A stretch of 64,000 bases of DNA, taken from positions 93,652 to 157,651 of the forward strand of contig LVLI01000251.1 of assembly GCA_001687465.1 (NCBI GenBank), read 5' to 3'. The position numbers were made by a program, and so were the translations under genes. Under the pieces are notes generated by a model. The model saw only the letters and a list, made by a program, of their open reading frames with translations. It had not been told where the DNA came from and did no database searches. The DNA comes from Halocafeteria seosinensis. Taxonomy: Eukaryota; Sar; Bigyra; Bicosoecida. Positions 12,944-32,465 of this stretch are shown piece by piece (position 1 is the stretch's first letter; each line of letters begins with the position of its first letter).

Positions 12944-13407
12944 ATTGCTTATAGCTTCGCCTGTGGACGCAAACCAAAGTATCTACTGTCGGCCACTGTT
13001 GATCGTTCCTTCACCTCGGGTATTCGCTTACCTTGTTTCTTTTCTCGTGTAACTAGATCTGCATCAAAGATCGAAATTGTACGTACCAATCCATACACAG
13101 AGTGTAACCGGCTGCTGTTTAACTGTAGCTGTAGAGTCTCATGACTGGCGGCTGCCAGCCGGGCCGGGCGGGCCCGGGCTTGTAGCCCGGTGTCAGGCAC
13201 AACGTGACAAAGTGTCACAGGCTGTGTCACAGAGTTGTGCTCCCACTTGAAGGAATTCAAAGAGCTACTTCCAGTATATTTGGTGGTCGAACTAGCAAAG
13301 CAATTACCGCAGGGCGTGTGACTGTCCGCGCTGTTACTTTGTTGTTCTGAGGCCACACCAGTGCTGCACGTACATGTATTCCCCAAAGCTTGCGGAGGGA
13401 ATCAAGT
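12944..13407. other. divergent intergenic region with a GC-rich palindrome
   Basis: This separates TMEM258 (minus) from the first TTL-like gene (plus). At about 13158-13190 there is a strongly GC-rich, partly self-complementary tract (GGGCGGGCCCGGGC). Both flanking genes start here, so promoters for both must lie within about 460 bp. No specific motif can be assigned. Confidence 0.35.
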
Positions 13408-14925: not shown

Positions 14926-14935
14926 TATGATCCGA

Positions 14936-15470
14936 TAACGTTGGAAGAGTTCAACCAGGATATGGCAAGATGAGCTCCCTGCTCACACCGTTGCACGAGC
15001 CAAGCTGTCCACGAAGGCAGGAGGACTAGGGATAGTCATCTCGGACCACGCAGCAGAAGCATCGCATATCGCCGGGGCGATCGACGCGTCAAAAACGATC
15101 CAACAAGTGACAGAAGATGAGCAGGATCTACTCGCGCAATACCGCTGCCATGCCTCGCGGAGAGTCAGAACGCGCCGCAGGAAACAATCAGACTCCCGGA
15201 TGCGAGCTACAAAGGCTACTGGAGCAAAACGAAGCTGCAGTAACACCTGGGCAAGAAGTTGCAGAGAGTAGCTACACGAACCCTGAAAGTGACGCTGACC
15301 CCACAGCAGAAAGCGTTGCTGATACCTTGCCAAGCGGACGGAGCAGCTGCAGGGCTATATACGCAGCGCCAAAGAAGGGATTTGCATTAACCGACACCGA
15401 GTAAGTGGTAGCAGTGCGCGTGCGCCTAGGGCTACCGGCCATCCCGTGAATGAACACCAGACACAAATCT
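14936..15470 (+). pseudogene. remnant of a non-LTR retrotransposon reverse transcriptase (C-terminal part)
   Basis: Between two TTL-like genes, one frame (about 14936-15271) reads DELPAHTVARAKLSTKAGGL then GIVISDHAAEASHIAGAI. This matches the post-catalytic segment of LINE-type reverse transcriptases (arLP...GGLGl...a.aAylas). A second frame continues it at about 15310-15460 with LPSGRSSCRAIYAAPKKGFA, LTDTE, stop, VVAVRVRLGLPA, the family's fnalPt...f.l.d.eF..alR.RLGL region with a stop where an aromatic is expected. A frameshift plus an in-frame stop show it is dead. No 5' part, poly(A) tail or target-site duplication is evident. Confidence 0.55.
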
Positions 15471-15471
15471 G

Positions 15472-16067
15472 GTCGAACACAAGGTCTGTCGTTTCATCCT
15501 CTAATGGCCTAGTTACATGGACGATGATATTGGCTTATCTTGCCCTGCAGCGCAAAGTGTGAGAGGACATGTACAACCAGTGTGTGTGTGTGTGTGTGGT
15601 AGGTCAAAATCGTCGTTGTGGCATAGCGAAAGACAATTCACATGTATGGGCATTCCTCGTTTACCACAAATCATAGGCTCGATAGCAACAACTGCCCTCT
15701 TTCATTAATACCTTCTCTACAAACAGCAAGGAGTCTGCGGCGCTCTGTGCTTGGCAGGTTTTCCGGTCCGGGACGGAGACGGGCCATACCTGCTACTTTG
15801 TGGAGAATCCTGTAGGAAACGCTATGATGGCGAGTTGTGGACGTTTTCCAGCTTTTGGCCTGATTCATGTCCTCAATTCCACTTACACTGTTGTCCTACT
15901 GAACTCCTATATGTGTAAGCAATACTTGTAGCAACCTGTTATTGCCTTGAAGGAAAACGCTGTAGACTGTACCAAGTACTGATATGGTGGTGCTTCCTTT
16001 CAAGCGGGATTGCTAACGATTCATAAGCTTATACCAGTCGCCAAGGATTCTTTGTGAGGGACTTTAC
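15472..16067. other. intergenic upstream of paralogue B, with a short (TG)n tract
   Basis: A (TG)9-10 microsatellite lies at about 15580-15598. Frames here have no recognisable content. The region may include further decayed retrotransposon sequence but I cannot show it. Confidence 0.35.
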
Positions 16068-17705
16068 ATGATGCGAACTCCCATATTTATTATTCTACTC
16101 GCTATTGTGACCACACCTGTGGCTTTTTTGGGCTACAAGATCGCCGAATTAAAGCAGCAAAGTGAGTATGCGCGTGTGGCTTATATTGGAAGCAACGAAC
16201 AGACATTAGCAGAACATGAAATTGGAAGCCGAGGAGTTGCTAGTAATGGGAATGGGGAAGCAACTCTGCCAACACAGTCCTCATCGATTTCGCATACTCA
16301 TGACGAAAATTTCTGGCAGGAGTTATCCAGAAGCATTGGCCACACATTGACTGCCGTCGTAGGGTATCAGAAGGCTCCTCTCCGCTGGGCGCTGGACGGG
16401 AGCTCAGGCCAGTACCGACGAGTACATGACGACCTCGCGAGCACCCTGAAACTACACTTTGGGATGATTGAAGACGCACTGCGCTATAATATTCTCTTTG
16501 ATGCAACAGAAGAACCACTTAACATGCAGAGTCTAGCTAGTTGGGAGCATGAAAGACAGATCCTCTCTTCGGCGGGCCCGCAAACACGAGTACTCAGAAT
16601 TCCAGGGCTCCAACGCGAATTGGTTAGCGTAGCCAGACAATGTGAAGTGTCGGAGAAAAGCTTCACGGACACTGGAATCAGGCTGTCACCTCCTTGCTTT
16701 ATGGGTCCAGTGCGAAACCTCCACGAAGCTATGGGAGCATTCCCTCATATTACCAGTTGGGCATTTGTCGAGAATACGACTGGTGGCCACGAATACTTCG
16801 GACAGGACACCATGCAGATTTCAATCCAAAAAAGCGGAATTCTTCAATCTCTGCCAGACCCCGCTCCTCTATTCGGGAAAAGAGCGCAATTGCGTGTCTA
16901 CGTAGTTGTGGCTTCCCTGGATCCACCCCGGATTTATATCTCCCGTGATGGATACGTTCAAGTGGACTCAGACATGGCGCAGTCTGGTGATTTCCAAAAC
17001 ATCGCCAAAGTCCATACGAACCAATTTATCCCACAGACGCTAGCTTCAGAGCAGAAGATGGCCTCCGCGGCAACTACAGGGCATTATTGGAGCATGCTTC
17101 ACTCTCGTGGCCTTGACGTGGACAAGATATGGACAATACTCCAGAAGAAGATAGCTTTGAAGATTCTCCTATCTAATAATAACGTTTTCGGTTGTAAGAC
17201 AAACCCGATTTCGTATCGCTGTGGTAGAACAACGCTGTTACTCTTAATGGATATAATCGTTGATAAAACAGGAGATCCGTTCATCATGCGAACGACCTCT
17301 AACCCCGGAAAGCTAGAGCCCACCAAAGCGGAGCAGCTGCTGAGTATTGGTATTGAATCACGAAGAGGATTATGGGGTGGCTATGCTTTGCAAATGTCAC
17401 CATTAATTGAGCCGAGGCTGCGTATCAGCTTCCTAAAATGGCTCCAAGATAACGATTCCGCCAAGAAATTGCAACAACTCCGCAAGTACTCTGTTGAAGA
17501 AGCCGTTGAGCTTCTTGCCGATGCTGCAGTCGAGAGCAGATTTGCCTGTAGTGTCAATTACGAAGAGATCCTTCCAACATTTGGGAACGAAGATATCTTC
17601 GCGCGGTATCTTCATGCAGATGATAAGTTACTATACGGTATCCACCGGAGTTATTTGGATTCCCTGGCATTTGACAGCGATTCTTGCGCTCTGTTCAAGT
17701 TCTGA
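16068..17705 (+). CDS. secreted tubulin-tyrosine-ligase-like protein, paralogue B (probably inactive)
   Basis: Intronless, 545 residues from the ATG ATG at 16068. An N-terminal hydrophobic helix (about 4-25, PIFIILLAIVTTPVAFLGYK) acts as signal peptide or type II anchor and is followed by a low-complexity stem (about 40-95). The TTL-like core follows paralogue A closely (RVLRIPGLQ, AQLRVYVVVASLDPPRIYIS, VDKIWTILQKKIALKILLS, FGCKTN, LRKYSVEEAVELL, C-terminal CALFKF). Two key features are weaker: the glycine-rich ATP loop is altered (VENTTGGHEYFG), and the metal-binding Glu of E-x-N is replaced by Arg (FIMRTTSN). I infer loss of catalysis with retention of fold and cysteines, a pseudoenzyme. 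It lies 1.1 kb downstream of paralogue A in the same direction. Confidence 0.75.
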   Translation: MMRTPIFIILLAIVTTPVAFLGYKIAELKQQSEYARVAYIGSNEQTLAEHEIGSRGVASNGNGEATLPTQSSSISHTHDENFWQELSRSIGHTLTAVVGYQKAPLRWALDGSSGQYRRVHDDLASTLKLHFGMIEDALRYNILFDATEEPLNMQSLASWEHERQILSSAGPQTRVLRIPGLQRELVSVARQCEVSEKSFTDTGIRLSPPCFMGPVRNLHEAMGAFPHITSWAFVENTTGGHEYFGQDTMQISIQKSGILQSLPDPAPLFGKRAQLRVYVVVASLDPPRIYISRDGYVQVDSDMAQSGDFQNIAKVHTNQFIPQTLASEQKMASAATTGHYWSMLHSRGLDVDKIWTILQKKIALKILLSNNNVFGCKTNPISYRCGRTTLLLLMDIIVDKTGDPFIMRTTSNPGKLEPTKAEQLLSIGIESRRGLWGGYALQMSPLIEPRLRISFLKWLQDNDSAKKLQQLRKYSVEEAVELLADAAVESRFACSVNYEEILPTFGNEDIFARYLHADDKLLYGIHRSYLDSLAFDSDSCALFKF

Positions 17706-18281
17706 TTTATGTTTATTGTATTTATTCTACCGGGAGAGCTATAATAAAAATCCGGCTATAACAGCGACTGCCCATGCTTCCTGGTTCAGTGCATGAGTGG
17801 TTGGCATTTGACGAAGTCGCGAAGTGTGTCAACTGTCTCTTTCGTTGTCGTTAATTGGAAAGTTTAGAATGTTGGTGCATACCTACCCAAACTTTATTCG
17901 TGCCAACATGTTAACACGTCATTGAATCCTTCCATCCACTCGTATAGTTTTTCATCGTTTGCGCTGCCTCTCTCCGAACAGCGGGCCCGTCGCTGCCAGA
18001 CAGGGGCGCCAGCTGTTACCCAAGTAGCGGCTCACATCCAACTGCTGGTGGCCCATCAGTCACATATTCGTCGTCGTTGTGATACTGTCTGAGCATTCAC
18101 ACCAGAAGACTCAGCATCCCTTTGAACTATCGCCCGCTTCTTCAAGCTATACATTGGCACGATAACATCAGACGACCTCATGCGCCAATACAATGCTAGT
18201 GCTCGCTTGACCTTTGCACGTACCGAAACATATTGAGTGAACTAAATCCTGAACAGTATGGGCCAGTATCAAAGTAGGTAT
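17706..18281. other. convergent intergenic region with a dispersed-repeat fragment
   Basis: This lies between the convergent 3' ends of paralogues B and C. At 17976-17995 there is a GC-rich 20-mer whose reverse complement occurs exactly at 59946-59965, with partial similarity beyond it. It is probably a fragment of an unidentified dispersed repeat. No gene is seen. Confidence 0.35.
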
Positions 18282-19838
18282 TCAGAACTTCAACTGAACG
18301 CAAGATCGTTGAGGATACCGCACGGAACTCAAGTATTCTCGATAAATATCATACAACAGCCTTTCATCTGGCCCGATATACGATGAAAACTCCCGTCTGT
18401 CGCCGAACGCCGGCAAAATGTTATCGTAGTTCACATGACACGAAAATTGAGCCTCTACTGCCATGTCAGCCAACAGCCTTATACTATCCTCAATTGAATA
18501 ATTGCGGAGCTGTTGGAGTGCATCCATAATGTTGGCTCTCTGTAGCCACTCCAAAGCCTCGACACGGATACGAGTTTCAGTTAGCGGTGACATTTGCAGA
18601 GCATATCCTCCCCATAGCGCTTTACGTGCTTCAATACCATTATACAACCACTTATAAGCTCCTGGTGGCTTGAAGTTTGCTGGGCCAGTCATAGTCTCCA
18701 TGACGAAAGGCTCCCCCTTCTTGTCAATTATGACGTCGATAGTGACCGACGCTGTTGCCGTCCCACAGCGGTATGGAATTTGGTTTGTTTTGCAGCCAAA
18801 GCGATTTTGTCCGGAAATTAGGAACTGCAGTGCAACTTTTCTTTTGATTCTTCTCCACACACGATGCACATTGAGCCCACGTGAGCGCAAAACGGCCCAG
18901 TAGTGCCCAAGCGTTGTTATCGAGGATAGCCGTTGTTCCGAGGCAAGAACCTGTTGGTAGGCGTTTCTGCCTTCACCGAAGATGTAGTGGAAATTGGTGG
19001 GTTCAGAAACGTCTGCCGACCCTATACGAACATATCCATGTCGAGAGATGTATATGCGAGGAGGGTCAAATGAGCCAATAACAGCGTAGAGGCGTATATC
19101 AGCCTTTCTACCGTACAAAGGCACCGGTTCAACTAGAGCTTGTAGCACACCCTTACGCATTACTTTGTATTTTAAGGTATCCGACCGGAAGAGCGTTTGC
19201 CCCTCTCCTCCTGAAAACCCGTCCTCCTTGAAGAGCCAGCTGCTAACTTCCGGAAATTGCCGCATTGTGTTCTGGAGATCCCGAATGGGTCCGACGAAGC
19301 ATGGTGGGGATATCCTTAACCCGGTTGCTTGGAAACCTTGGTTTGACACTTGGCACAATCTGCCTCTACTGGCGGTTTCGAATCGCAAGTTAGGGATGCT
19401 TAGTACGCGCGTGTTAGGGGATAGCTTGGAAAATATGTGTTTCACTCCTTTCCACCCGGCAAGTTTCATAAGCTGACTGGTATCCTTGGAAATATCGAAG
19501 AGAATGTTAAAGTTTTTGCGGTCCTCCACCATGCCGTAGTGTAACTCAAGCGTATCTTTTATGTCTTGATGAATATCCTTGTAATTGCCGGACACGCCTG
19601 CGAGGGCCCAGCGTAATGGCGCTCCCGTGTTTTGCTGGAGTTGATGCGGTGCCAACAGCCCATGCTTTCCTGTTTCGTTGGAGATTCTCGCCTCATAACG
19701 TAAAAGAGCGCTAGTCGGGACGCAATAAGCTCCATTCAATACTGCCATTATGAACGAGAAAGTAGCGAGTATGTGCCATGTAGGACTAGGTTGTGTCCGC
19801 GAGGCATCTGGTATTGGTATTTTAGGTTGATACATCAC
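18282..19838 (-). CDS. secreted tubulin-tyrosine-ligase-like protein, paralogue C
   Basis: Intronless, 518 residues, convergent to paralogue B. A hydrophobic segment at about 22-43 (WHILATFSFIMAVLNGAYCV) is a signal peptide or anchor preceded by a 20-residue polar leader. The core aligns with paralogue A throughout: RWALAGVSGNYKDIHQDIKD, KEDGFSGGEGQTL, ADIRLYAVIGSFDPPRIYIS, VHRVWRRIKRKVALQFLIS, FGCKTNQIPYRCG, TIDVIIDKKGEPFVMETM and the final CVQLKF. Metal-ligand motif is ETM, so Glu is kept and Asn lost as in A. C is visibly closer to A than to B. Secretory location is inferred from the N-terminus and the conserved cysteines; the acceptor substrate is unknown. Confidence 0.8.
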   Translation of the reverse strand: MMYQPKIPIPDASRTQPSPTWHILATFSFIMAVLNGAYCVPTSALLRYEARISNETGKHGLLAPHQLQQNTGAPLRWALAGVSGNYKDIHQDIKDTLELHYGMVEDRKNFNILFDISKDTSQLMKLAGWKGVKHIFSKLSPNTRVLSIPNLRFETASRGRLCQVSNQGFQATGLRISPPCFVGPIRDLQNTMRQFPEVSSWLFKEDGFSGGEGQTLFRSDTLKYKVMRKGVLQALVEPVPLYGRKADIRLYAVIGSFDPPRIYISRHGYVRIGSADVSEPTNFHYIFGEGRNAYQQVLASEQRLSSITTLGHYWAVLRSRGLNVHRVWRRIKRKVALQFLISGQNRFGCKTNQIPYRCGTATASVTIDVIIDKKGEPFVMETMTGPANFKPPGAYKWLYNGIEARKALWGGYALQMSPLTETRIRVEALEWLQRANIMDALQQLRNYSIEDSIRLLADMAVEAQFSCHVNYDNILPAFGDRREFSSYIGPDERLLYDIYREYLSSVRYPQRSCVQLKF

Positions 19839-19925
19839 AATTCCTGAATAATACCCTCAATGAAGGCCACTGGTAAAGCATTAAGTGCATGCTATGCCCC
19901 TAGCTGCGCAATATTCCTGTAAAAT

Positions 19926-20657
19926 AGCTAGAAACTGCTAAATAAAGTTGTCCAACCTGGTACGAAATTTTTGGGTAACGGAGTCCGGGTTAAACAGGCT
20001 GGTGTGTGATTCAACTTCAACTATAGCAAGTGCCGCTCTAGTAGCGCTCTACTCGTACAATGTATTGGGCATTACTAAGCGCAACCACTTGCAACACATG
20101 CTACAATCACTCCTCTGCACCAGACAGCTTAGGCGCAATCGAAGACACACACACACACACACACACACACATGTGACAGATAGCCCAGCGGCCAGGAAGT
20201 TGACCGCATCCTCTTAACTCTTTGGCTTTTGAGCCGGAGTCCGGGTAGCAGGAATATTCATCCTTTGGGATTCCTTCGAGTCACCTGCAGGAGTATCTCC
20301 GTTTTAGTCGGTATACGGGTTAGCATGTTTAGCAGACAATAGCACATCCCAAGACAGCCGGTACTTTGTCAGCACTGCCCAAGCAGTTCGTGTTTCTTGG
20401 GTTCACAGTGAACCGTTCAATCAGTGAGTCAGTGCCACTGGCCACACCCTCCACTTCACAAAGCATCTACAGGATGGCCTCAACGATTGAATAGCTAAAT
20501 TCTCCTCTGTTTTGATTATAGCTATCATGCATTCAATTTATTCATGCCGTCGCATTGATACGTCTTATGGGATGGCTTCTCCCTCTAATGGGCGGTCTTT
20601 TAAGTTTGAGCGGGAACCTTGATGTATTGTTGGCCTAGATTTTGGGGTCTCCTCAAC
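19926..20657 (+). promoter_or_regulatory. duplicated upstream region of the anchor/stem gene, interrupted by an insertion
   Basis: Segments at 19926-19978 and about 20410-20657 match, in inverted orientation, the sequence upstream of the paralogous gene starting at 30265 (about 30690-30600 and 30500-30266). Shared words include GCTAAATAAA.TTGTCC, GGCCACACC, CTTCACAAAGCA, GGCCTCAACGA.TGAATA, TTTTGATTATA.CTATCAT and TTATTCATGCC.TCGCATTG. Conservation outside coding sequence means the promoter was duplicated together with the N-terminal coding part. No specific transcription-factor site can be named. Confidence 0.6.
19979..20246. mobile_element. insertion of about 256 bp flanked by a 12-bp direct repeat
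   Basis: CGGAGTCCGGGT occurs at 19979-19990 and again at 20235-20246. The paralogous upstream region near 30.6 kb runs through the same point without the intervening sequence, so this copy probably gained an insert. The insert holds a (CA)n microsatellite (about 20145-20170) followed by 48 bp that recur at about 59875-59920 with 41 of 48 identical bases, again directly after a (CA)n tract. This is consistent with a short non-autonomous element such as a SINE. No tRNA-type promoter or tail was identified. Confidence 0.45.
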
Positions 20658-22889
20658 ATGTGTACACCCACCTTCAAAGCACTGATTATATTGGCCTTAG
20701 TCGTATTTGACATCGTGATTTTTTTTCATTGGGTTAAAACCAACGGAGTGTATCCTACCACAAAGCTGCCAAATGGAGCATATCTCCGTCAAGGTTGGAG
20801 CGCATCTCAAAGCCAGAGCAGCAACTTACAATCGAATTTGCTTGCGCATGGGAAGCATGTACAAACAGAGAATACAAACCATGGGGCCTCATCGCAAGAA
20901 GGAGCTGTCAGTTACATTCAACGGAAGAATGCCGAAGGAGAAGTGGTCGACTTACGACACTCGAATGGAAACCGCGAAACCCGCCAGGAAATTCAAGACG
21001 GATATTTACCCGACACCACTGGGACTACCACACACAAACAGGGTACACATCAGTATAGCAATGTCCGGCGTGAAACCGATAACTCGGTCGACCCGAATGC
21101 TAGAGACATCCATTTCGGTACTGTAGACAAATCGAAAGACGACGACGACGCTCGTCCCGTCTCACAATTGGTAAGCGGTCAGCACAGCAATGTCCTATCA
21201 AAGCCCGATAAACCGGAGGATCAGAATAGTCCAGACATTGGCTACAGCTCTGTAAACCGGTCCCCAAATGCCAATAGCCCTGATGCTCTTCCTGTCTCAA
21301 ACGTAATGACAAACCGAGGAGTCAATAAGCCAGAGAATCGAGATATTAGTAACACCAATGTTAAACAATCACCGGAAGAAGATTCCGTCCTTCCAGTGTC
21401 AAACTTAATTGCCCAACGATACTCTCCAAACGGCTGGAAAGACTCTGTTCCTAAAGCTTCTGGGAAAAAGCAACTTGGTAGTAGTGCTCGTCAAGATAAC
21501 CAGAAGCCCACGGTCGGAGGAAATTTAGCAAAAAAGCCTTGGTTACCCGACAAGAGAACTTCTTCGGGGCAACAATGGCGGCCGCTGACGAGCGGCATTG
21601 GTACACGGCAAAGGCAGAAGTTTTTAGGAAGCGGGCGCGGTCCACCGAAACAGCGGGCTGCTTCTGGAGGCGTATGGAGGCATGGGCCTACCCTTTTTCG
21701 GAGTACTAACCGACCAGGATCGTTCAACAGTCGTAGGAAGTCAAGTTCATTTATGCTTCGCCCTTCTACGAGTCAATCCTCTTTCAGTATTCCTCGGGAT
21801 TCGGTTTCCAACACCGACGTGCCAAAAACAGCTACTCCAGTGTCGGAACTTCATTCGTTGCTCAAGAAGAAACTAGCCGACGGTTACGAATGGAGGGTGC
21901 ATAACTTGCATCTCTCCGGTCAGTCTCCGAAACTAGTTGTAGGGAATGACCAGAATCCTGCGTACGTCTTTAAACTTTCTTGCCCTCTTGACCACGGGAG
22001 ATGGTTGGCCAAATCTTATAGATCTATACTTGCAACCGCCCTGGATGAGATACTCCTGGGAAGGGAGGACCCCTTTGGACACGGGCAGATCATTCCACTC
22101 GAAATGCTTGAAGAAAGAAAGGATGAAAATTTGGTACAAACTTTAGACAAGCTCTTTTCACAGTGTGTATGGACTGTTGGTGGAATAGACTTTCTTGCTG
22201 GTGTTTTCTTGGACTATGATGCTGACCTAGAGGAGCATCAGGATAATGACTGTTCTATTTTCGCCGAGCATAAAGAGGATACTGCTAAACAGTGGATTTT
22301 GGATATGATAACCGGTCAGGCGAGCAGGTACTGCAACAGACATGTTTTCTTCAACTCCGCGAGCAAACGACAGGTCTTCTACGATTTCGATGATGCCGTT
22401 TCTGGATTTGATCTAGAGACATGTTCAGCCCGCAACTACCCCACCCTTTCCGACCCCTATTACCTGCAAGGCACAGGTATCAACAAATCCCATCTATACT
22501 GCAGTGTATCAGATAGTGCTTTGGAAATCACCAGGAACTTCCCGTCCAGGACAGCAATTCGTCAAGCTCTTCAAGAGAAGTTAGGGAACGATGAGTGGTT
22601 CCAACTATTCCTCCCATATCACTCCACTAAAGCCAAATGGATGGACAAATCGACCAGAACCGCTTGCGTTGATCAAAGCATGCGCTGCAAGATGCAGCGT
22701 AGCATCGGATCGTTCGAGGCGATTCATGATTCGTGTTTTTCCAACTTCGTGCAGAAATATTCCTCGGCTGCAGTTAGTGAATTCGCGGTGGCCTTCTTCG
22801 CAGATATCTTCGCTAACCGCTCTGCCAATTTGCAGACCGCGCTTTCTACTTCTAGAAGAGAACGATGCATAGAAAGAAATTTACCGTAG
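20658..22889 (+). CDS. type II Golgi-type protein with FAM20-like kinase-fold C-terminus
   Basis: Intronless, 743 residues from the ATG at 20658; an upstream in-frame ATG at 20622 exists but is not conserved in the paralogue. Residues 7-25 (KALIILALVVFDIVIFFHW) form a signal anchor. Residues about 30-180 are a stem shared with the gene at 28.7-30.3 kb; 180-420 is disordered. The C-terminal domain (about 420-743) shows an atypical-kinase pattern: a Lys in AYVFKLSCP (about 438), Glu in ALDEILLG (about 462), DMITGQASRYCNRH (about 549) like the D-x-x-x-G-x-x-DRH catalytic loop of FAM20/HipA/PI3K-type kinases, and FYDFDDAVSGF (about 575) like the metal-binding segment. The loop Asp reads Asn (NRH), so activity is doubtful. 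The kinase fold is inference; anchor and stem duplication are plain. Confidence 0.6.
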   Translation: MCTPTFKALIILALVVFDIVIFFHWVKTNGVYPTTKLPNGAYLRQGWSASQSQSSNLQSNLLAHGKHVQTENTNHGASSQEGAVSYIQRKNAEGEVVDLRHSNGNRETRQEIQDGYLPDTTGTTTHKQGTHQYSNVRRETDNSVDPNARDIHFGTVDKSKDDDDARPVSQLVSGQHSNVLSKPDKPEDQNSPDIGYSSVNRSPNANSPDALPVSNVMTNRGVNKPENRDISNTNVKQSPEEDSVLPVSNLIAQRYSPNGWKDSVPKASGKKQLGSSARQDNQKPTVGGNLAKKPWLPDKRTSSGQQWRPLTSGIGTRQRQKFLGSGRGPPKQRAASGGVWRHGPTLFRSTNRPGSFNSRRKSSSFMLRPSTSQSSFSIPRDSVSNTDVPKTATPVSELHSLLKKKLADGYEWRVHNLHLSGQSPKLVVGNDQNPAYVFKLSCPLDHGRWLAKSYRSILATALDEILLGREDPFGHGQIIPLEMLEERKDENLVQTLDKLFSQCVWTVGGIDFLAGVFLDYDADLEEHQDNDCSIFAEHKEDTAKQWILDMITGQASRYCNRHVFFNSASKRQVFYDFDDAVSGFDLETCSARNYPTLSDPYYLQGTGINKSHLYCSVSDSALEITRNFPSRTAIRQALQEKLGNDEWFQLFLPYHSTKAKWMDKSTRTACVDQSMRCKMQRSIGSFEAIHDSCFSNFVQKYSSAAVSEFAVAFFADIFANRSANLQTALSTSRRERCIERNLP

Positions 22890-23148
22890 TTTCTCCAGTG
22901 CAACAGTCCGTCTTATGCCGTCACTTTGCTGGCCCTGCAGCAATAATAGATCCCACGCGCAAGATCCAAAAGCACGACTTAAATCATCACATCTATAGCT
23001 ACAGCAGTTGACACACATCTTTATCACTAGTCGGTCGCGCAATTTTCTGTTAACGCCTGTAGCCTTGGGTGTCGGAACGCTCAAATGACGTACGGGAGTA
23101 CCTCCAAGCAGGGGCCTATGGGTGCACACGACCACTGCCGTGGCTTCA

Positions 23149-25599
23149 TCATCGCAGATATATATGCTTTTCCAGTGCGTCAAAAAATTCGCGTTCTACA
23201 TCAGCACAACTATAGTCTCCCAGTTCCTCGTACGTTTGCTTCAATGTTTTTCTGAATGAAGCCAGAGTGCTAGGTGCATCCAAAAGCACCTTTTCGCTGA
23301 GCATCTGAAGGAATAATCCACGGTATCCATCCTTTTCGCTACAGAGGCTCCGAAGGAAGCAAATATATGCTGCTTTCAGTACCGGCGCTTCGGTCCCATT
23401 GAAAGCGAGATTTCTAAGCAACCTATGAGATTCCGACCAGTCGCCAGTGGCATGTCCCAGTTGTGTAGCGAATTGAATCAGACACTGTGAAACACCAAGA
23501 CCGCCTAGTGGCTCGTTTGCTAATGCGGACTTGTCCAGGTTAGACAACATGAGACGGGTGGCCTCTAGGTGCCCTACGCGGGAAACCTTTAAGCTGTCGC
23601 TTGGGACTTCCCGAGCGGTTACGCTGATGTCGTTAGCTTGCTCATTCACTGGTCTCCTCCCTGGGTCATGTAATGAGTTAATAGTCTGAGACATCCATTT
23701 TTTCGTGCTTCTTAAGTTGTTTTCGCACAACCAAGGGTATCGCTCTCCCTCACTGTAGCTCAGAAGCTGCATTGCTGACTGTTCTTCAGGGGCTATACCG
23801 AAGCGGCCATCACCAGTGCTAATAGTCTCGTTCGATGCAATAATGATTCTGCGAACGAGCCGAGATGGCAAGGGTGTACTAGAGCGGATATAGTCACCAA
23901 GCACACGAAATACATCATCCAATGTGCCGCTTATGGAAAGTTCCTTCACCAAAGTTTGCTCCACACCAGGAAGAAGGTTTCCCCTTTGCTGACGGTATAT
24001 CCACATTGCTTCCTGTAGCTTTTTTTCCTTCAGAAGATATTGTACGGTTGTACTTGCCACAAAAATGTGATGCTGGAAACCACCATCTGGAACAGTGCTC
24101 CTCGTTGTTAGAGGAGAATCTTCCTCAACAGCCATCATCCCATTCTGGTCTTTGGATTTGGTCGCGTACCACTTCAGACCTTGGAGTACCGCTGCAGGAC
24201 TTGAGTTACAATATAATTGCCATGCGAAGGGCACTTTCTGTGGCTTGGCAAATTGTTCCAGTAAGAGGGTACTTATTGCCTGAGGAAGTTTAACAGATTG
24301 ATTGCAAAACTCCGCAACTTGGCCCTGTTCCCATAGTTGCAACAGTGAACGAGTTGCACCGGCAAATAAGGGAGCCTCGCTATCCTTTGTCCTGAGTGTG
24401 GTGCGTATCTGGTCGTGTAAGAGGTTCTTTTGAGAACTTAAGAGACTTGCTCTTTCCTTCGTCTCTTCGTCTGTAGAGCGCATCAACTTCCCTGCATCTA
24501 AAGTACACGATGAAGCAAAAACTTTCATCAAGAAGCCTGAGCCATTCGTTTTGGGTCCAAAAGAGCAGACTAAACAAGCTGGTAGGTCGTGGATACAATG
24601 CTGGAGCAACAGAAAAGCAGTGGCGAACATTCCGTAAGAACTCAAAGCACGCAAACACCATGACAAGAGCTTATCATCCCACAAATCAAACACAGATATG
24701 CAATGTTCATGTCTGCTCATCGCGGGGTACTGGTTGGTCATGTAGCTAGCGTAGTTGGTGAGGAGTGCTTCTTGGAACGCAGCAATAATAGTTAGCACTG
24801 TTTGCATATAGTCTCGACCAAATTTTTTATCCGCAAGGCCACTAGAAGAAAAAATGTCAGGTAGCATTGCAGCAATATCAGAAGGGAGGATAACATCTCC
24901 CGTCGTTGCCTCCTCGACGCATGTAGGTGAGGGACACACAAGACATCGAATCAGAGAGGTAACTGCTTTCTTCCCCTGCGTAGCTTTACGATCCGTTTTT
25001 TGGAACCATAGCCTACCCTCTTTGCCGCAAGTAAACGCTTCCACTACCCTTCCGAGAAGTTGTCGCCGCAACTTGTTCCATTGGTACCGAACGTGTGCAG
25101 TAAGACCCCCACCCGGTTGAGTGTCCCGGATAGCTTCTTCTATGGTTCCCAAAGCTAGAATTAGCCCAGAATGCCGATCATTCGGTTGCCGGACAAATAA
25201 GCCCTCTATAATTGCGTCACATAATCGATGCATCTTCTCTAAGTCTTGTACTGTCACTTGCTGGGTGCCCCGAAGCTGTCGCAGCGATTCCTGCAATTTC
25301 TGGATGCTTTTATCCCTGTCAAACTTCGTCCCCTTCGGTCCCCCGATTGCTGTCGACATAAATGCAGTGTTCTTTTTCTGCATGTCAATGCGTCCTAATA
25401 AGGCTCTACATGTCATAAATTTGGGGTAAAAAGGCTGGGAGAGTCCCAACGCCCGCTGAGCGATTCCAGACTGCTGATACGCATATCGCTTCATATTTTT
25501 TTTACCAGACAAGAGGAAGAGTGACTGCATCCAGCGGAAATGATGGCCGATTCTTACTGATTTCTGGAAACAGGATATCACGGATACGAATCGTAGCAT
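23149..25599 (-). CDS. 816-residue probable mitochondrial helical-repeat protein
   Basis: Intronless, start at the ATG at 25599. The N-terminus (MLRFVSVISCFQKSVRIGHHF and on) is rich in Arg, Lys and Ser with no early acidic residues until about residue 70, as in a mitochondrial presequence. The rest is predominantly alpha-helical with segments such as LLKEKKLQEAMWIYRQQRG that resemble pentatricopeptide or similar helical repeats, but without a regular 35-residue period I can demonstrate. A role in organelle RNA handling or translation would fit but is not shown. It ends 259 bp from the convergent end of the FAM20-like gene. Confidence 0.6.
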   Translation of the reverse strand: MLRFVSVISCFQKSVRIGHHFRWMQSLFLLSGKKNMKRYAYQQSGIAQRALGLSQPFYPKFMTCRALLGRIDMQKKNTAFMSTAIGGPKGTKFDRDKSIQKLQESLRQLRGTQQVTVQDLEKMHRLCDAIIEGLFVRQPNDRHSGLILALGTIEEAIRDTQPGGGLTAHVRYQWNKLRRQLLGRVVEAFTCGKEGRLWFQKTDRKATQGKKAVTSLIRCLVCPSPTCVEEATTGDVILPSDIAAMLPDIFSSSGLADKKFGRDYMQTVLTIIAAFQEALLTNYASYMTNQYPAMSRHEHCISVFDLWDDKLLSWCLRALSSYGMFATAFLLLQHCIHDLPACLVCSFGPKTNGSGFLMKVFASSCTLDAGKLMRSTDEETKERASLLSSQKNLLHDQIRTTLRTKDSEAPLFAGATRSLLQLWEQGQVAEFCNQSVKLPQAISTLLLEQFAKPQKVPFAWQLYCNSSPAAVLQGLKWYATKSKDQNGMMAVEEDSPLTTRSTVPDGGFQHHIFVASTTVQYLLKEKKLQEAMWIYRQQRGNLLPGVEQTLVKELSISGTLDDVFRVLGDYIRSSTPLPSRLVRRIIIASNETISTGDGRFGIAPEEQSAMQLLSYSEGERYPWLCENNLRSTKKWMSQTINSLHDPGRRPVNEQANDISVTAREVPSDSLKVSRVGHLEATRLMLSNLDKSALANEPLGGLGVSQCLIQFATQLGHATGDWSESHRLLRNLAFNGTEAPVLKAAYICFLRSLCSEKDGYRGLFLQMLSEKVLLDAPSTLASFRKTLKQTYEELGDYSCADVEREFFDALEKHIYLR

Positions 25600-26345
25600 A
25601 CGATTTATCAAAGCAAAGTAGCAACAGTACCGAACTTCGAGAGTTTGTGAAGTTCTTCCGCTCCGTACAGCAATCCGACGGACCGACGGCGCTTTAAAAG
25701 TTTATGCACCGGAATCTTCCCCCAAACTAATATCAACGTTATTTATACCGATCTGATAACCCACACAGTGCAGACTTCCAGGCTTCCACTGAGTGGTGAC
25801 AGAAGTGAAGCAAAGTCAGTCAGTGGTCAGCGAAATAACTCGAAGTCGGTTTTGCCTCACCGCCTACTGTAATCCTTCGCTGAATAGCACAGACATTTTT
25901 TCCACCTCTTAAGTAAGGCTCTTTCTCGATGACCCTTCCATTGTGCTATGGTTGTTGCTACAGTCCATGGTAAGCGGCAACTTCAACTTGGGACGTAAGA
26001 AAGCAAAGTTCTACCATACTGTGGTCCATACACTGTACATACAGGGACTGTTTTTGTTGCTAGATTTGAGGTTGTCTAACGAATGTGTTTGTTAAAGTAC
26101 TAGTACGGGAGCTTTGGGATCGAACTTCAGCAAACAGCAGTAATGACATGGAATCCCCGAAGATGATACCTCCGCGATGGAAGAAACGAAGTCATCGCTC
26201 AAGCACTGTTCATTGGATGGTTCTGCTCTGAACGATGATGGCAAGCGTAGCAGGCCCCGAAATGGGAATTCCGGAAGGACATTGAACGTCTGAGAGCAAT
26301 TGTGGTCGTAATGGTGGTTCTGGTTTTCTGGAGGCTTTATAGGGG
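25600..26345. other. intergenic (25600-26345)
   Basis: This is upstream of the minus-strand 816-residue gene. No open frame with recognisable content was found. The 5' part of the acyltransferase-3 pseudogene may extend into the last 200 bp. Confidence 0.35.
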
Positions 26346-27720
26346 TTGATATATGCTTTGTCCTCAGTGGATATTTTAGTGACTGCCCTTCTTATGAAGG
26401 AGGTGGATACATATGGGACAATCAGTATTCTCGAATTCTTTGCTGGGCGAATTAAGCGATTACTCCCGGGTTCAGCGCTCGTTTTGCTGACGGAAATTTT
26501 CTGGCAAGTTGGTACCATATTCCGTCAATATCCAATCCTGCGCTTTTAGAGGATGGAATGAGTGTCGCGACATACCAAACGAACTTTCGCTTTGCAGAAA
26601 TACTAGGAGACTACTTCCACATTGATGATGCTTTGCCTCCCCTGCTTCACCACTGGTCACTGGCGATGGAAGCGCAGTAATATGCTCTGTGCCCTCTACT
26701 ACTAAAGCTGGTCCTTTTCATTCCAAACTTCAGACTTGCTACACAATTCTCTTGGTTCTTATTTCTGCTGCTTTAGTAACAATATGCCAGTACTGGATTC
26801 GTAATGAGAACATATTCTCATTCTATTAATGGCCGGCTCTGGCTTGGGAATTAGCTGCCGGAGCGCTACTGGGTGTTGGCCCTTGCAAAAACGTCAGCAA
26901 CTACCAAACTGTGTTAAGGAGACCTATCCATGGATAGGGCTGATTAGTATAGCCTTATGCTGCTTTACGTACTCTACAGAAACATCGTTCCCTGGATTGG
27001 GGGCATTGTCGCCGGTACCAGGAAGTGTGGCGATAGTTTCCGCCACAGTTTCTTCTGGTTTAGCCAAAACTAGTTTCGGACCTTCCAGTGGATCGTTCAT
27101 CATTCTTATTCGATATATCTTTGGTACTGGTTTTTATTGAGCTTTGCTCCAATGCCACTTCCGAACCTTTCTGAATTAGAAGGCAGAATTGTAGCAATCC
27201 TGTTGACGTTTGGAATGTCTTCATTAACGTTGTGGAAATACCAGTGCGTCGCAGTCGAATTTTTGGGAAGAGCACACGGATAACCATATTCGCTGGTCTC
27301 GTGGTAACGCTGATCAGCGTACGAGCAGTATCCATAATGTTTCAGATGCAGGAAACTATCGCAACCGGCAAGAAGTTAATCGTTCTTTCAGCATCCGGGG
27401 CTACTCAAGTTTAGCGGAATGGAACAAAATTACCCAGAAAGCTGAGATGCAGAAACACTTGCGCCTAACAATACGATGCCATCACTGAAGGGAGCCCTGT
27501 GATACTCCCGGACACTACACAGGTAGAATAGCCTAGTTGTTGGCGGAACGCAGTCAAAGGAAGACGTACTTGGCTTGGCGCGGAGAAATCTAGTTCGAGT
27601 CTCGTTGTTCTTTTTGATGACTCGCATACAATACAATGGTATGCTGCTTTAGACGGCATCGCAAAACGGCATAACCACAGCCGAACGGTACTTTATAAAG
27701 CATCCTTCGCGAAGTATATT
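26346..27720 (+). pseudogene. decayed acyltransferase-3 (OafA/OatA-type) gene with SGNH domain
   Basis: Fragments in changing frames spell out the family in order: EFFAGRIKRLLPGSALVLL (about 26430-26490), TNFRFAEILGDYFHIDDALP then PLLHHWSLAMEAQ followed by a stop (about 26580-26680), LAWELAAGALLGV (about 26840), FPGLGALSPVPG (about 26990), and further downstream VLFFDDSHTIQWYAALDGIA (about 27600-27660), which matches the GDSHa.qW..al start of the fused SGNH domain with Gly changed to Asp. Several stops and frameshifts interrupt it. Intact relatives O-acetylate surface polysaccharides. Splicing might rescue a few breaks, but the number of stops argues for a pseudogene. Confidence 0.65.
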
Positions 27721-28684
27721 TCTTCGGCATTGGATGGTTTTCTTAGCAAGATAGGAGTATAGAATTCCTCCTCCACTCCTCGACTGGAAAGGGTGCCCCG
27801 TGGTTTGTCTTCAGCCTTGTCACGGTGATTCCACCCGGTGTGTTCAGCGTTGCCGTCCATCCTCGGAGTCGGTTTACGTCTGTACGCCGTGAGATTGCGT
27901 TGCCCTTCATCCAGGAAGCTGCTATTGATTTCTTCGCCGGTCTCTTTTTCTCCTAATGGATTATACTCCCTGGAGGTGTGCCAACCCCATTTTGACACGT
28001 CCCTGCTCAAAGCTGTTGACTAGACAGAGAGAAACACAAGTCATCTCTCTACAGATTCCACTAGCTTCAGACCTTGTATCTCGTTTTGGTGAGGCAAACG
28101 AAGCGTACGAACATGTTCAATGGAAGAAGGAATTCCATCCTATTTTGTCAACATACCACTACTTACGGTCCGTCAGTAGTTACGGAGGGGTGTCCATCAT
28201 GTCCGCGCACGGGTCTACTGGATTTAGTAGTAATGAATCACTGTTCGTAAATGTGTATTATTTTGGCTCCTGCCGGACTTGTAAGCATTCACGAAATCTG
28301 TGGGACAATGACTGTTGCAATTTTGAAGTAGCACGTGTAGTGTGTACTATTGTGGCCTACCGGCGAAGAAGAGCTAGTTGTGGTATCTTCACGCCGCGAA
28401 AGATCTCCCTAGGGCACCCCTACATGGCTCACGAAGCACAATCAGACTCTTAACCATGATCTACGCTAGTTCATGGGGAACACATTGCAGGGGAACCGGA
28501 CAGTTTCGAAGCAGGAATTCCCCACGCGTAAGCATTGGAATATTTTTGGGGGTCATCTACTCCAGTTTTGCTATAAGATAGGCATGGAGTCTATCACGGG
28601 CGACGGATGAGAGCCATTGAGGTTTTTATTCGACAGTGCCTGAATATAATCCAGTCACTGGTTACTACTTACTTATGTGCGTCT
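27721..28684. other. coding-like remnants, unassigned
   Basis: A 165-codon frame at 27956-28453 includes EFHPILSTYHYLRSV and LWDNDCCNFEVARVV, faintly reminiscent of GT15-type mannosyltransferases (WSNFEIA), but similarity is too weak to assign. No intact gene model can be built. The region follows the acyltransferase pseudogene and may be part of the same decayed tract. Confidence 0.25.
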
Positions 28685-30265
28685 TTAGTTAGTTATCGTG
28701 GGACATGCTAAATTCTGCTCTCGGATATAGTTCTCCATTCTTACCGGAACGCATTTCGTTAAGGTTCTAAAGCACAATGATCCCGATTTTTTCCTACTAG
28801 CATGACCAAACATCAAGCGAGTCTTTTCGATGGGTATGTGCGCTTCATGGAGCCGCTGATTCCAGGCGCTTTCGGAATTTTTAATTGTACCATCATTGAC
28901 ATATTTTGGATCTAGCAGGATGTGGTAAAAGATCAAAGCTGCTGCATCCGTTCGAAATATTACGTATTTATCATTTATACCACCTTGTATGTTACAATCC
29001 AGCGTTACAACTGATCCCGTGAAGTGTAAGTAGGCTGGGTGTTCTTCGAAAAATACGTTATCCGTCCTTGTTCTGACATACATGGAATAGTTTCCGCGTT
29101 TTTTCACTGTATCGAAACCACGCATTAAGTTGTGATACATCATAAGGTTTCTGGTGCGTTTCTGTCGCGGATTTTGGTTACCGTGGTGGGTGGGCAACCT
29201 TTCTAGGTGGAACTGGTACTTCTCTTGAAGTTCATGTACAGTGGGAGCATCTTCCACTCCATAATAAGCTAGTCTAGCGCCTGCCAACTCTACCCTTCTC
29301 TTCAAGTAGGATCTCCTGCTTATATTGTCGACATCGAATTGAGAACCTGGCTTCAGTCCCATCTGCTTATCCCACCCCTTCAGTACGTGCTTCTGGTTTT
29401 GTTTCTGTAGCACTGCAAATACGTCCACAAGGATCCCAGCTCTCGTCTGAGGACGGAGAACGTTGATAGCCAAGGAGTCAATCGTCTCTTTGATTAACCG
29501 ATGTACTAGCCCACTTATGATAACTGCCATAGTGACAGGTTGTACGGTTGTCTGATTTCCATTTGCTATACCAGCACGTCTCAGCGTGATGTTGTTTTGT
29601 TTTCCCACCACCCCTCGGACGAGCTCAACCCCACTACCAGAATTAGCTTCGTCCATATTTTTCACATTATTTAACTTTTGTTCGGTTGGTATGCGGCTCG
29701 TGCTTCTGTTGTTTGGGTCACTGGGGCCGCCTCGAAGGAGTTGTGACACACTTTCCGCGTTGTGTTGACTTCTTCTCAACAATCGTGATACGAGACGATC
29801 GTCGTCGTCGTCTTTTGATTGATCAGCAGTGTCAAAACGGATGTCTTCAGCATTCTTTTCGACTGGGTTAGCGGCTTCATGTCGGGCATTGCTATGCTGA
29901 TGTGTAGTTGCGGTGGCTTGAATTGCCTGACGGTTGTTGTCGTGTCCATTCGAGAGTCGTAAGTCGAGCCTTTCTGCTTCAACACTCTTCTGTTGAGCGT
30001 GGCCGACAGCTCCTTCTTGCGATGGGGCCCCAAGGTTTGTATTCTCTGTTTGTACCTGCTTCCCATGCGCAAGCAAATTCGACCGTAAGTTGTTGCTCAG
30101 ACTTTGAGATGCGTTCCCGCCTAGGTGGAGGTATGCTCCATTTGGCAAAATTAACGGCTTTACAGTAGGATATACTGGTTTGGTTTCGACCCAATGAAAA
30201 AATACCACGATATCAATTACTACCAAGGCCGATATAATCAGTGCTTTGAAGGTGGGTGTACACAT
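28685..30265 (-). CDS. type II Golgi-type glycosyltransferase-like protein sharing anchor and stem with the 20.7 kb gene
   Basis: Intronless, 526 residues. Residues 1-27 (MCTPTFKALIISALVVIDIV and on) are nearly identical to the start of the 20.7 kb protein, and stem similarity continues to about residue 175 (AYLHLGGNASQSLSNNLRSN, SKDDDDDRLVSRLL). The C-terminal domain is unrelated: it opens with VTMAVIISGLVHRLIKET and carries MRGFDTVKKRGNYSMYVRTR then TDNVFFEEHP (about 385-410), the pattern of DxD-containing glycosyltransferases in which a line ends R-x-R-x-D before a fixed-position aromatic. Likely a Golgi-lumen transferase acting on surface glycans; donor and acceptor are unknown. The anchor is clear; transferase identity is inference. 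Confidence 0.6.
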   Translation of the reverse strand: MCTPTFKALIISALVVIDIVVFFHWVETKPVYPTVKPLILPNGAYLHLGGNASQSLSNNLRSNLLAHGKQVQTENTNLGAPSQEGAVGHAQQKSVEAERLDLRLSNGHDNNRQAIQATATTHQHSNARHEAANPVEKNAEDIRFDTADQSKDDDDDRLVSRLLRRSQHNAESVSQLLRGGPSDPNNRSTSRIPTEQKLNNVKNMDEANSGSGVELVRGVVGKQNNITLRRAGIANGNQTTVQPVTMAVIISGLVHRLIKETIDSLAINVLRPQTRAGILVDVFAVLQKQNQKHVLKGWDKQMGLKPGSQFDVDNISRRSYLKRRVELAGARLAYYGVEDAPTVHELQEKYQFHLERLPTHHGNQNPRQKRTRNLMMYHNLMRGFDTVKKRGNYSMYVRTRTDNVFFEEHPAYLHFTGSVVTLDCNIQGGINDKYVIFRTDAAALIFYHILLDPKYVNDGTIKNSESAWNQRLHEAHIPIEKTRLMFGHASRKKSGSLCFRTLTKCVPVRMENYIREQNLACPTITN

Positions 30266-30690
30266 ACTGAAGAGGTTCCTCCAACAGTCTAGCCCAGATA
30301 CCGTCCATTAGAAGGAGAAACCATTACATTATGCGTACAATGCGAAGGCATGAATAAAATGTAATGAATGATAGGTATAATCAAAACGGAAGGAAACTTC
30401 GTTATTCAGTCGTTGAGGCCATAAGTGCTTTGTGAAGTTTAAGGTGTGGCCGGTGGGGCACAGAAATAGCCCATTTAAGGTAGCTGTATGTTTGGAGCTG
30501 GAAGAATTCACTCAATGGATAGGATCGTCTTCATTCAGTCGGTATACGGTGCCTATTAGTTGGAGGTGACTCCTCTAAACGTCGGCAGTTACCGAGTTTC
30601 CGAATACAGCAGGATATTCCGTTTCCTTACTGCCCAACCTCCGAACCTGGCTGGACAAGTTTATTTAGCAGGTTTTGGCTGTGATACCCC
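30266..30690 (-). promoter_or_regulatory. upstream region conserved with that of the 20.7 kb gene
   Basis: This is the inverted partner of the 19926-20657 block. It runs through the equivalent of the 19.99-20.25 kb insertion point without the insert, so it probably represents the ancestral arrangement. Conservation suggests both genes are, or were, under the same control. Confidence 0.55.
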
Positions 30691-31457
30691 TTGTAGCATC
30701 ATAAATAACAGGAAAATTGCACAGTTAGGGGCATAACACCCACTCTTTACAGCAGACTGCAGTGCAGCAGCGGGTTGCAACGACAAATATGGGACAGCTC
30801 ACGTAGTACTACATACCGGTAGTGCTTGCATTGTCATACCTATGTTCCCTTCAGATTGCAGGTTTAAAAGGCAGTGAACCAAATGCAAAAGAATAGTGTT
30901 AGCAGTGCATGTTGGACAGAGTAAATAAACTGTATCAGCTACGTATGTTTGTGACGTTAGTCAATGGAAGGGGAACCTACAGACTAAGGCTACAGTACAA
31001 GTTGTACCGGTACACTATCAGGTGGTTACTCCATGAAGTAGCAATGGAAGTCGCCTCTCCCCCATTAATGCTTCCCAAGAGGCAAACACATGTTTATGTC
31101 AGCAGTTGAGCTCATACACAAGTAAGTTTTCTGTGGGTCAAACATGAAACGTGGAATTTCCACATGTAATGGTCCATTCCCGATACTACCCGCATTGAGC
31201 AGGAGAGCACGATTTGCACACCACAATGTATTATACTCATCGCGGAAGCAGCTAAAACGAAAATTGATTTCACAATTGGACAATGCTGTATGGTATTCCA
31301 TTTACTGTTCCACGCCCCCCCTGTTGACGTTCCATTCAGTCCAGGTATGCGCTCACAATCTTACGCGGTGGACGCTAACTGTGCTGCTGAGCTACTGGAA
31401 AAGCTTCACAGCTTGCTGATCCAGTGAGAATCTGTGAGATGGGCATTGGTCTGCCGT
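30691..31457. other. no supported gene (30691-31457)
   Basis: Opposing frames at 31065-31301 (minus) and 31144-31419 (plus) overlap. The minus one (FRDEYNTLWCANRALLLNAG and on) reads slightly more like protein, but no family is recognised and no splice model was found. Confidence 0.3.
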
Positions 31458-32465
31458 TTATGTAATTTTATAACCGTCACAGCCAGGAAACCTTCCTTGT
31501 GGTTTCCTGTTCTGTCCAATGAATGGAGTGAGATCACTCCATAACCTAGTGGAATTACATCGGTAAGCCCATAGGTTAAGAAACAGCAGTGGTCTGTCGC
31601 GAGCCAGACATGCTGAAAGCATGTTTTGAATCCCCAGCAAAAATGACGATGCTATCGGTCCTACCTTGTGTAATTTAAATGCATTGGAGCCTTTGACCCT
31701 ATTGTTCTTCTTTCCATATATCCCATTATTCATATGATCACTAATGTCGGCATAAGGGACAAGTGCCGTCAACAATGGGACCGCCCCCAATGGATGGGAT
31801 GCAATTCTCCTTCGGGACCATTCACGAAGTTCTCGTGTATTCAATAGTATTTTGGCTTTGGGGAAGGCCTTGAGTAGTGCAGGCAAGAACGCACCAACGG
31901 GCTGATCACTAATTGCATCAAACTCTTCAAATAGTCTAAAGTCAACGTTTTTCGCCGTAGCCAAAGTGTTTGTTGACATCTGCCCAACCACTTTTAACCA
32001 TTTTGCCTCCACATGTTGACTACACCTATGAGGACAAAACGTCCTCAGATTGTGTCCCACGACTAAATCGAAGTGAGTTAGAGCCTTCGCCAGAGCTTTA
32101 GTTCCAGTTGTGCCTTCGCCAGCAATTATTATGAGAGGGTGATTGGAAGAATAGCCGACATCAATCTCCGTAGCAATGTGTCTTAAGTCTCGGCATGCTA
32201 CCTCCAGAAGAGTTTGATTCGCTTCCGCCATTCTGGACATCAGAGGTTTCTCAGAGGATCTAGTATCGAGGTTATGAAAACTAGATAACGGTTGGGTAGC
32301 TCTCTGCATCTCCAGACTCCGGCTCGATCCTACAAGTCCTGTAATCACTCGCTTGGTATTGACGTCCCATCGGTTAAGCTCAAGCTGTGTCAGGAACCCG
32401 GCAGCAAAGAAGAGCAGGGCAACGGGACACATCAAATACTTCTTATTCTTGACGACGTAATCCAT
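31458..32465 (-). CDS. type II membrane sulfotransferase-like protein
   Basis: Intronless, 335 residues, ATG at 32465. A signal anchor (about 10-28, YLMCPVALLFFAAGFLTQLE) is followed by a stem and a P-loop-like phosphosulfate-binding motif IIIAGEGTTGTKALAKAL (about 109-126). Later motifs fit the sulfotransferase fold: DFRLFEEFDAISDQPVGAFL, LLKAFPKAKILLNTRELREW (the 3'-phosphate-binding Arg region) and a late LWSDLTPFIG resembling w..L..FLg. Such enzymes use PAPS to sulfate glycans or proteins in the Golgi lumen, which suits an alga with sulfated surface polysaccharide. The fold call is reasonable; the acceptor is unknown. Confidence 0.65.
   Translation of the reverse strand: MDYVVKNKKYLMCPVALLFFAAGFLTQLELNRWDVNTKRVITGLVGSSRSLEMQRATQPLSSFHNLDTRSSEKPLMSRMAEANQTLLEVACRDLRHIATEIDVGYSSNHPLIIIAGEGTTGTKALAKALTHFDLVVGHNLRTFCPHRCSQHVEAKWLKVVGQMSTNTLATAKNVDFRLFEEFDAISDQPVGAFLPALLKAFPKAKILLNTRELREWSRRRIASHPLGAVPLLTALVPYADISDHMNNGIYGKKNNRVKGSNAFKLHKVGPIASSFLLGIQNMLSACLARDRPLLFLNLWAYRCNSTRLWSDLTPFIGQNRKPQGRFPGCDGYKIT

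Follow-up and report, generated by a model that had tools for sequence, protein, structure and literature searches.

Terminal reassortment of bacterial effectors, reportedly described by Stavrinides and co-workers in 2006, is said to reuse an N-terminus together with its upstream control on other C-termini. In genes of Schistosoma japonicum, a core promoter/control region and a secretory signal were duplicated as a unit, as described in the relevant part of PMC3434034. The closest kind to the gene pair presented here is the chimeric gene duplicate, or partial duplication with recruitment, by the criteria given in the pertinent sections of Katju 2012 (PMC3449122), with which it has in common that homology stops within both reading frames and that the catalytic parts match elsewhere in the genome. 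The pair, genes A and B, lies in a stretch of 64,000 nucleotides from the bicosoecid Halocafeteria seosinensis (GCA_001687465.1, contig LVLI01000251.1, positions 93,652 to 157,651), which is called the window. We consider it likely that A and B form a pair of chimeric duplicates which arose from one inverted duplication of a 5' end and not from a recurrent scheme. The 5' end of one gene, comprising the upstream control region, the signal anchor and the first part of the stem, would have been copied in inverted orientation to a site ~9 kb distant on the same chromosome, where it came to be joined in frame to another, unrelated luminal domain.

The common front of genes A and B and its break

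A BLASTN comparison of 19.6-23.1 kb with 28.4-31.2 kb of the window returned a single long minus-strand match (20435-21186 against 30456-29761; 73% identity over 765 columns including gaps, expectation value (E) 1.6e-138), which supports the inverted segmental duplication proposed in an initial annotation of this DNA for the 5' part of the gene. As judged from hydropathy, both products have an N-terminal hydrophobic anchor, a stem and a luminal domain with conserved cysteines. The elements of the locus are as follows:

19858..19990, plus strand: distal upstream block of A, common to B (local alignment; BLASTN E 4.5e-6 and 1.6e-5)
20002..20220, no strand: dispersed-repeat insertion upstream of A, without counterpart in B, on both haplotypes
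20435..20657, plus strand: proximal upstream block of A, common to B, well aligned to ~20619
20658, plus strand: ATG of gene A (743 residues); 12 residues more if translation starts from the in-frame ATG at 20622
20658..20762, plus strand: N-terminal anchor of A, residues 1-35 (hydrophobic 8-26; mean hydropathy 2.66 over 19 residues)
20763..21215, plus strand: shared stem of A, residues 36-186 (alignment with B)
21216..21839, plus strand: private stem of A, residues 187-394, with imperfect repeats of the end of the shared segment
21840..22889, plus strand: C-terminal domain of A with Fam20-like fold, residues 395-743 (Ser556 at 22323-22325)
28685..29548, minus strand: DUF7796-related, possibly GT-A-like domain of B, residues 240-526
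29549..29728, minus strand: private linker of B, residues 180-239
29729..30160, minus strand: shared stem of B, residues 36-179 (alignment with A)
30161..30265, minus strand: N-terminal anchor of B, residues 1-35 (mean hydropathy 2.49 over 19 residues)
30265, minus strand: start of gene B (526 residues)
30266..30456, minus strand: proximal upstream block of B, common to A (BLASTN, local alignment)
30620..30764, minus strand: distal upstream block of B, common to A (BLASTN, local alignment)

Two short upstream matches (19884-19920/30744-30708 and 19926-19964/30680-30642) were found in addition, and the local alignment of the upstream DNA, which spans 19858/30764 to ~20619/30272, reached a score of 267; the best of 100 mononucleotide shuffles scored 103. 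The homology of the upstream DNA thus stands, but the 250-300 bp of the initial annotation have to be replaced by two blocks, ~185 bp proximal and ~130 bp distal, which are divided in A by the insertion at ~20002-20220. This insertion consists of dispersed repeats with matches on many other contigs and is also present in the second haplotype, C591 matching the entire upstream query at 96%; its repeats are of two types, ~150 and ~60 bp, with several other copies near contig ends.

In the proximal block (20435-20610) 30 of 170 ungapped columns are mismatched, which is less than at synonymous sites of the front (35/118, P 0.02), whereas the distal block, with 27 mismatches in 117 ungapped columns and 44 gap columns, is not different from synonymous sites (P 0.30). 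The final 40-70 bp 5' of the ATG are poorly aligned (9 mismatches in 31 ungapped columns). The lower divergence of the proximal DNA lends slight support to a retained control sequence, and the retained blocks would make a similar transcriptional control of A and B plausible.

The near-identical signal anchor that had been annotated was confirmed, as 23 of the first 26 residues are identical. Over the 174 codons that align between residues 1-186 of A and 1-179 of B, the synonymous divergence (dS) is 0.38 and the nonsynonymous divergence (dN) 0.23, with a dN of 0.12 in the anchor. The figure of about 180 residues, which the initial annotation gave for the stem, agrees with the length of the whole aligned front, but the common stem proper has only ~150 residues after the anchor. 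Codons 56-95 of the shared stems carry fewer synonymous changes than the others (3 of ~27 sites versus 32 of ~91, P 0.017), and gene conversion was considered here.

Past this front the homology stops inside both reading frames. The protein remainders score 35 at a shuffle mean of 35.8, and the score of the DNA remainders, 26, was equalled by 26 of 100 shuffles, so that homology running through the C-termini was not found in either. Repeats in the stem of A leave the exact edge of the break uncertain to within a few tens of residues: the stem runs on for another 208 residues, in which the last shared segment recurs imperfectly, and in 21078-21482 three imperfect repeats of ~40 residues are present, of which the shared stem of B has one. 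Three repeat pairs score 50-52, the shuffle maximum being 40 (300 shuffles each).

The clear homology of the fronts would also be expected from ordinary paralogues with C-termini too diverged to be recognised as related. We give practically no credence to such a simple divergence, since the genome contains a separate set of relatives for either C-terminus (35-44% identity for the nearest three of A, 37-39% for B), the predicted models of the two C-termini differ and the dS of the front is just 0.38. The catalytic domains of both genes are matched elsewhere in the genome, in line with the annotated unrelatedness of the C-terminal domains. The low identity to the nearest relatives (at most 45% for the domain of A and 39% for that of B) indicates that the sharing of the front came long after both domain families had split.

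Age, order of events and searches for further copies

As the assembly is a draft (30.6 Mb in 605 contigs), an assembly or contamination artefact has to be considered. It is very improbable, because contig C591 (11,862 bp), 3-4% diverged, aligns end to end with 31729-19601 of the window, in two pieces of 96.0 and 97.4% identity, and holds both genes complete and collinear, in the same arrangement and with open frames; this makes a chance misjoin unlikely. Only ~340 bp near 26.7-27.0 kb are absent from this second haplotype. The dS between the haplotypes lies at 0.04-0.09 in six of eight segments (range over all eight, 0 to 0.09), which, set against the 0.38 of the front, places the duplication several times further back than the divergence of the haplotypes. 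The stem of A differs between the haplotypes by 10 nonsynonymous changes and 1 synonymous change, which weighs against a tightly constrained stem.

The replacement of the enzymatic part assumed in the initial annotation is one possible order of events, and capture of the front by an existing gene fits equally: transfer of the A front onto a sugar-transferase gene, transfer of the B front onto a kinase-like gene, and domain replacement after duplication of the whole gene are all compatible with the data. A whole-gene duplication with later replacement of one C-terminal domain would yield the same present-day structure, but it requires more steps and no convincing domain remnant was detected between the genes (nothing below E 5 for the kinase domain; for the sugar-transferase domain only a 30-residue match near 27.2 kb, E 0.027). 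Such an absence is weak evidence, and we regard this order as the less probable one, although it retains a real chance. For the chimeric origin from a copied 5' end, A is a slightly better candidate for the donor than B because of its continuing repeats, which could have expanded later.

If anchor and stem were a local way of sending new enzymes to one site, as had been suggested, further copies of the module on other domains would be expected. In the searches with the front the only strong matches were A, B and the C591 copies, and a third copy was not found in the genome by single-sequence searches; of the DNA searches, one with this front scored 40 of 375 candidates and one with the front of a relative 40 of 429. 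The next-best match, residues 72-192 of the B stem against C266 (30%, E 0.026), was taken as compositional, since C266 encodes a long hydrophilic protein whose N-terminus has no hydrophobic anchor by eye. The fronts of five relatives of the catalytic domains (C91:31793, C150, C396, C91:49854 and C176:50834) match no other gene front among the candidates scored, and one of them contains dispersed repeats well 5' of the start. Each of the nine relatives from this genome carries its own hydrophobic stretch at the N-terminus. In 21 comparisons of N-termini (the B front with eight relatives, the A front and the A private stem with five kinase-like proteins, and the B linker with three sugar-transferase-like proteins, C178 being left out) no front or private stem exceeded the shuffles, the lowest shuffle fraction being 0.10. 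The private stem of A (187-367) and the linker of B before residue 227 matched no other gene except C47, weakly (E 0.24). As far as tested, the sharing of the front looks like one event in these sequences, and the idea of a general delivery scheme was not borne out.

With complete A and complete B as queries, protein databases yielded nothing at E 0.01, sequence searches of the PDB nothing better than E 0.13, and B had no match in the viral contigs searched. Single-family searches of the genome for the RuBisCO large chain, chlorophyll-binding and silicon-transporter families were without match, so that there is no sign of photosynthesis.

The two C-terminal domains and their probable compartment

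The C-terminal domain of A is matched by five other genes in the genome (44, 39, 35, 26% and, over part of the length, 28% identity). These relatives (C91:31793, C91:49854, C176:50834, C53 and C265) are anchor-bearing, kinase-like proteins with a Fam20-like fold; a search with the kinase-domain alignment found one further protein, P0003, in a metagenome. Ten cysteines are invariant in the alignment of the family. A has the atypical kinase fold of the Fam20/PI4KII type with Fam20 as top-ranked predicted fold, although the fold score did not separate Fam20 from CtkA/PI4KII. Pfam Fam20C (PF06702) had no match at E up to 1 in A and the five relatives scanned; a genome-wide search with it was likewise empty, but its control also matched nowhere.

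The catalytic-loop Asp (D458 of human Fam20C) corresponds by motif and spacing to Ser556 in A, while all six aligned relatives have Asp. A second change in the loop DRxCxxN, Asn to His, is found in A; the six relatives keep the motif, and both substitutions are present on both haplotypes. After the start-Met column, a cut-fragment artefact, was dropped from the alignment of A with its relatives, 3 differences of 31 remained. The metal-binding Asp (D478; Asp576 in A) and the lysines K271 and K285 (Lys425 and Lys439) are kept, as judged by sequence motif and spacing, and the spacings of 20 (loop to metal Asp) and 14 (between the lysines) are those of Fam20C. The region equivalent to Glu306 and Glu311 is not conserved within the family of A in the sequence alignment.

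Because the catalytic-loop Asp is a Ser, it is doubtful that A is a "new enzyme"; judged from these residues it is probably a pseudokinase kept by selection. An active kinase that uses another residue, or a kinase-fold transferase of another group, would be an enzyme nevertheless: the metal-binding Asp and both lysines are retained, the domain is under constraint and kinase-fold proteins with other chemistries exist, as stated in part of PMC7948968. The two changes inside a loop kept by six relatives make this unlikely. For a pseudokinase A, the likeliest role by analogy would be that of Fam20A, i.e. a binding or allosteric partner of a relative that is active, for instance the gene C91:31793. 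The likeness to the Fam20A/Fam20C pair lies in the predicted fold, the lysine and Asp spacing and a probable pseudokinase beside apparently intact relatives. Unlike A, Fam20A keeps the catalytic Asp and has lost a metal-binding Glu, according to parts of PMC4421793 and PMC5413348, and A has no match to the Fam20C profile. The species named in the cited part of a paper on Fam20 evolution are animals (PMC5865150), and a literature search for Fam20 in protists gave nothing apt among the entries listed.

The C-terminal domain of B is matched on four contigs of the genome with 37-39% identity; two of these, C10 and C178, share 92% identity across 3.5 kb and could represent either alleles or a recent duplication. 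B scores 14.6 bits with DUF7796 (PF25072), under the curated cut-off of 27, and three relatives, in a scan that left out C178, score 20.4, 17.8 and 28.4 bits, of which the C396 relative passes. The likeness to DUF7796 is that B is 37-39% identical to a group holding the C396 relative; the difference is that B itself stays below the cut-off. The domain of B is most likely a glycosyltransferase, possibly GT-A-like. C178, which hardly differs from C10, was omitted from the leave-one-out count for the sugar transferases, as was the copy on C591.

Both products would reside in the secretory pathway, probably in the Golgi, as type II membrane proteins, and the common anchor and first part of the stem would send them to the same compartment. 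This Golgi site and the common control are inferred from the layout of anchor and stem and from the upstream DNA that both genes have kept. In the portion of PMC4282539 on plant GnTI, the transmembrane segment sets the sub-Golgi place and the stem serves mainly for homo- and heteromeric complexes. The cytoplasmic tail, possibly 12 residues longer in A, may be an exception. By analogy it is conceivable, if quite unlikely, that anchor and stem have a role beyond targeting and that the duplication made A and B a matched pair, in which the pseudokinase A is expressed together with the sugar transferase B and, complexed with it via the common stem, serves as its non-catalytic subunit.

Immediately upstream of B on the same strand, a Sulfotransferase-family gene (31458-32465; Pfam Sulfotransfer_4, 53.4 bits) encodes a hydrophobic N-terminal stretch, possibly another Golgi enzyme of the cluster. 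The product of 56804-57973, with a near-threshold HtrL_YibB match (23.2 bits, cut-off 24.1), is possibly another sugar-transferase-like protein. Three TTL-family genes, one slightly under the Pfam cut-off, occupy 13390-19838; genes one (+) and three (-) are an inverted pair of 68% DNA identity, so that a second local inverted duplication adjoins A. Between A and B, 26300-28000 contains many short broken frames that look acyltransferase-like by eye only, and a Pfam scan of five pieces of it gave nothing convincing. In the window ARAGORN detected no tRNA, and no Rfam family reached its gathering score.

Comparison with known systems

In the bacterial effectors the reused part reportedly carries a bacterial secretion signal; here it is a eukaryotic membrane anchor with a stem, in a single case. 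A natural exchange of Golgi anchor and stem was not described in the titles and abstracts searched, a narrow set of open-licence literature. With upstream control, anchor and stem transferred together from one luminal domain family to another, the locus would be a clean natural case for testing which properties depend on anchor and stem alone. A family of Fam20-like fold is indicated as well, with a probable pseudokinase of its own; none of its six proteins scanned matches the Fam20C profile. The Schistosoma japonicum unit exists in many dispersed copies, with the signal motif in 27 UniGene entries according to the section cited (PMC3434034), whereas here we find one inverted pair with anchor and stem. 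From the chimeric duplicates, as treated in the cited sections of Katju 2012 (PMC3449122), the pair differs in that upstream DNA, anchor and stem are held in common and that the private catalytic parts both belong to established families.
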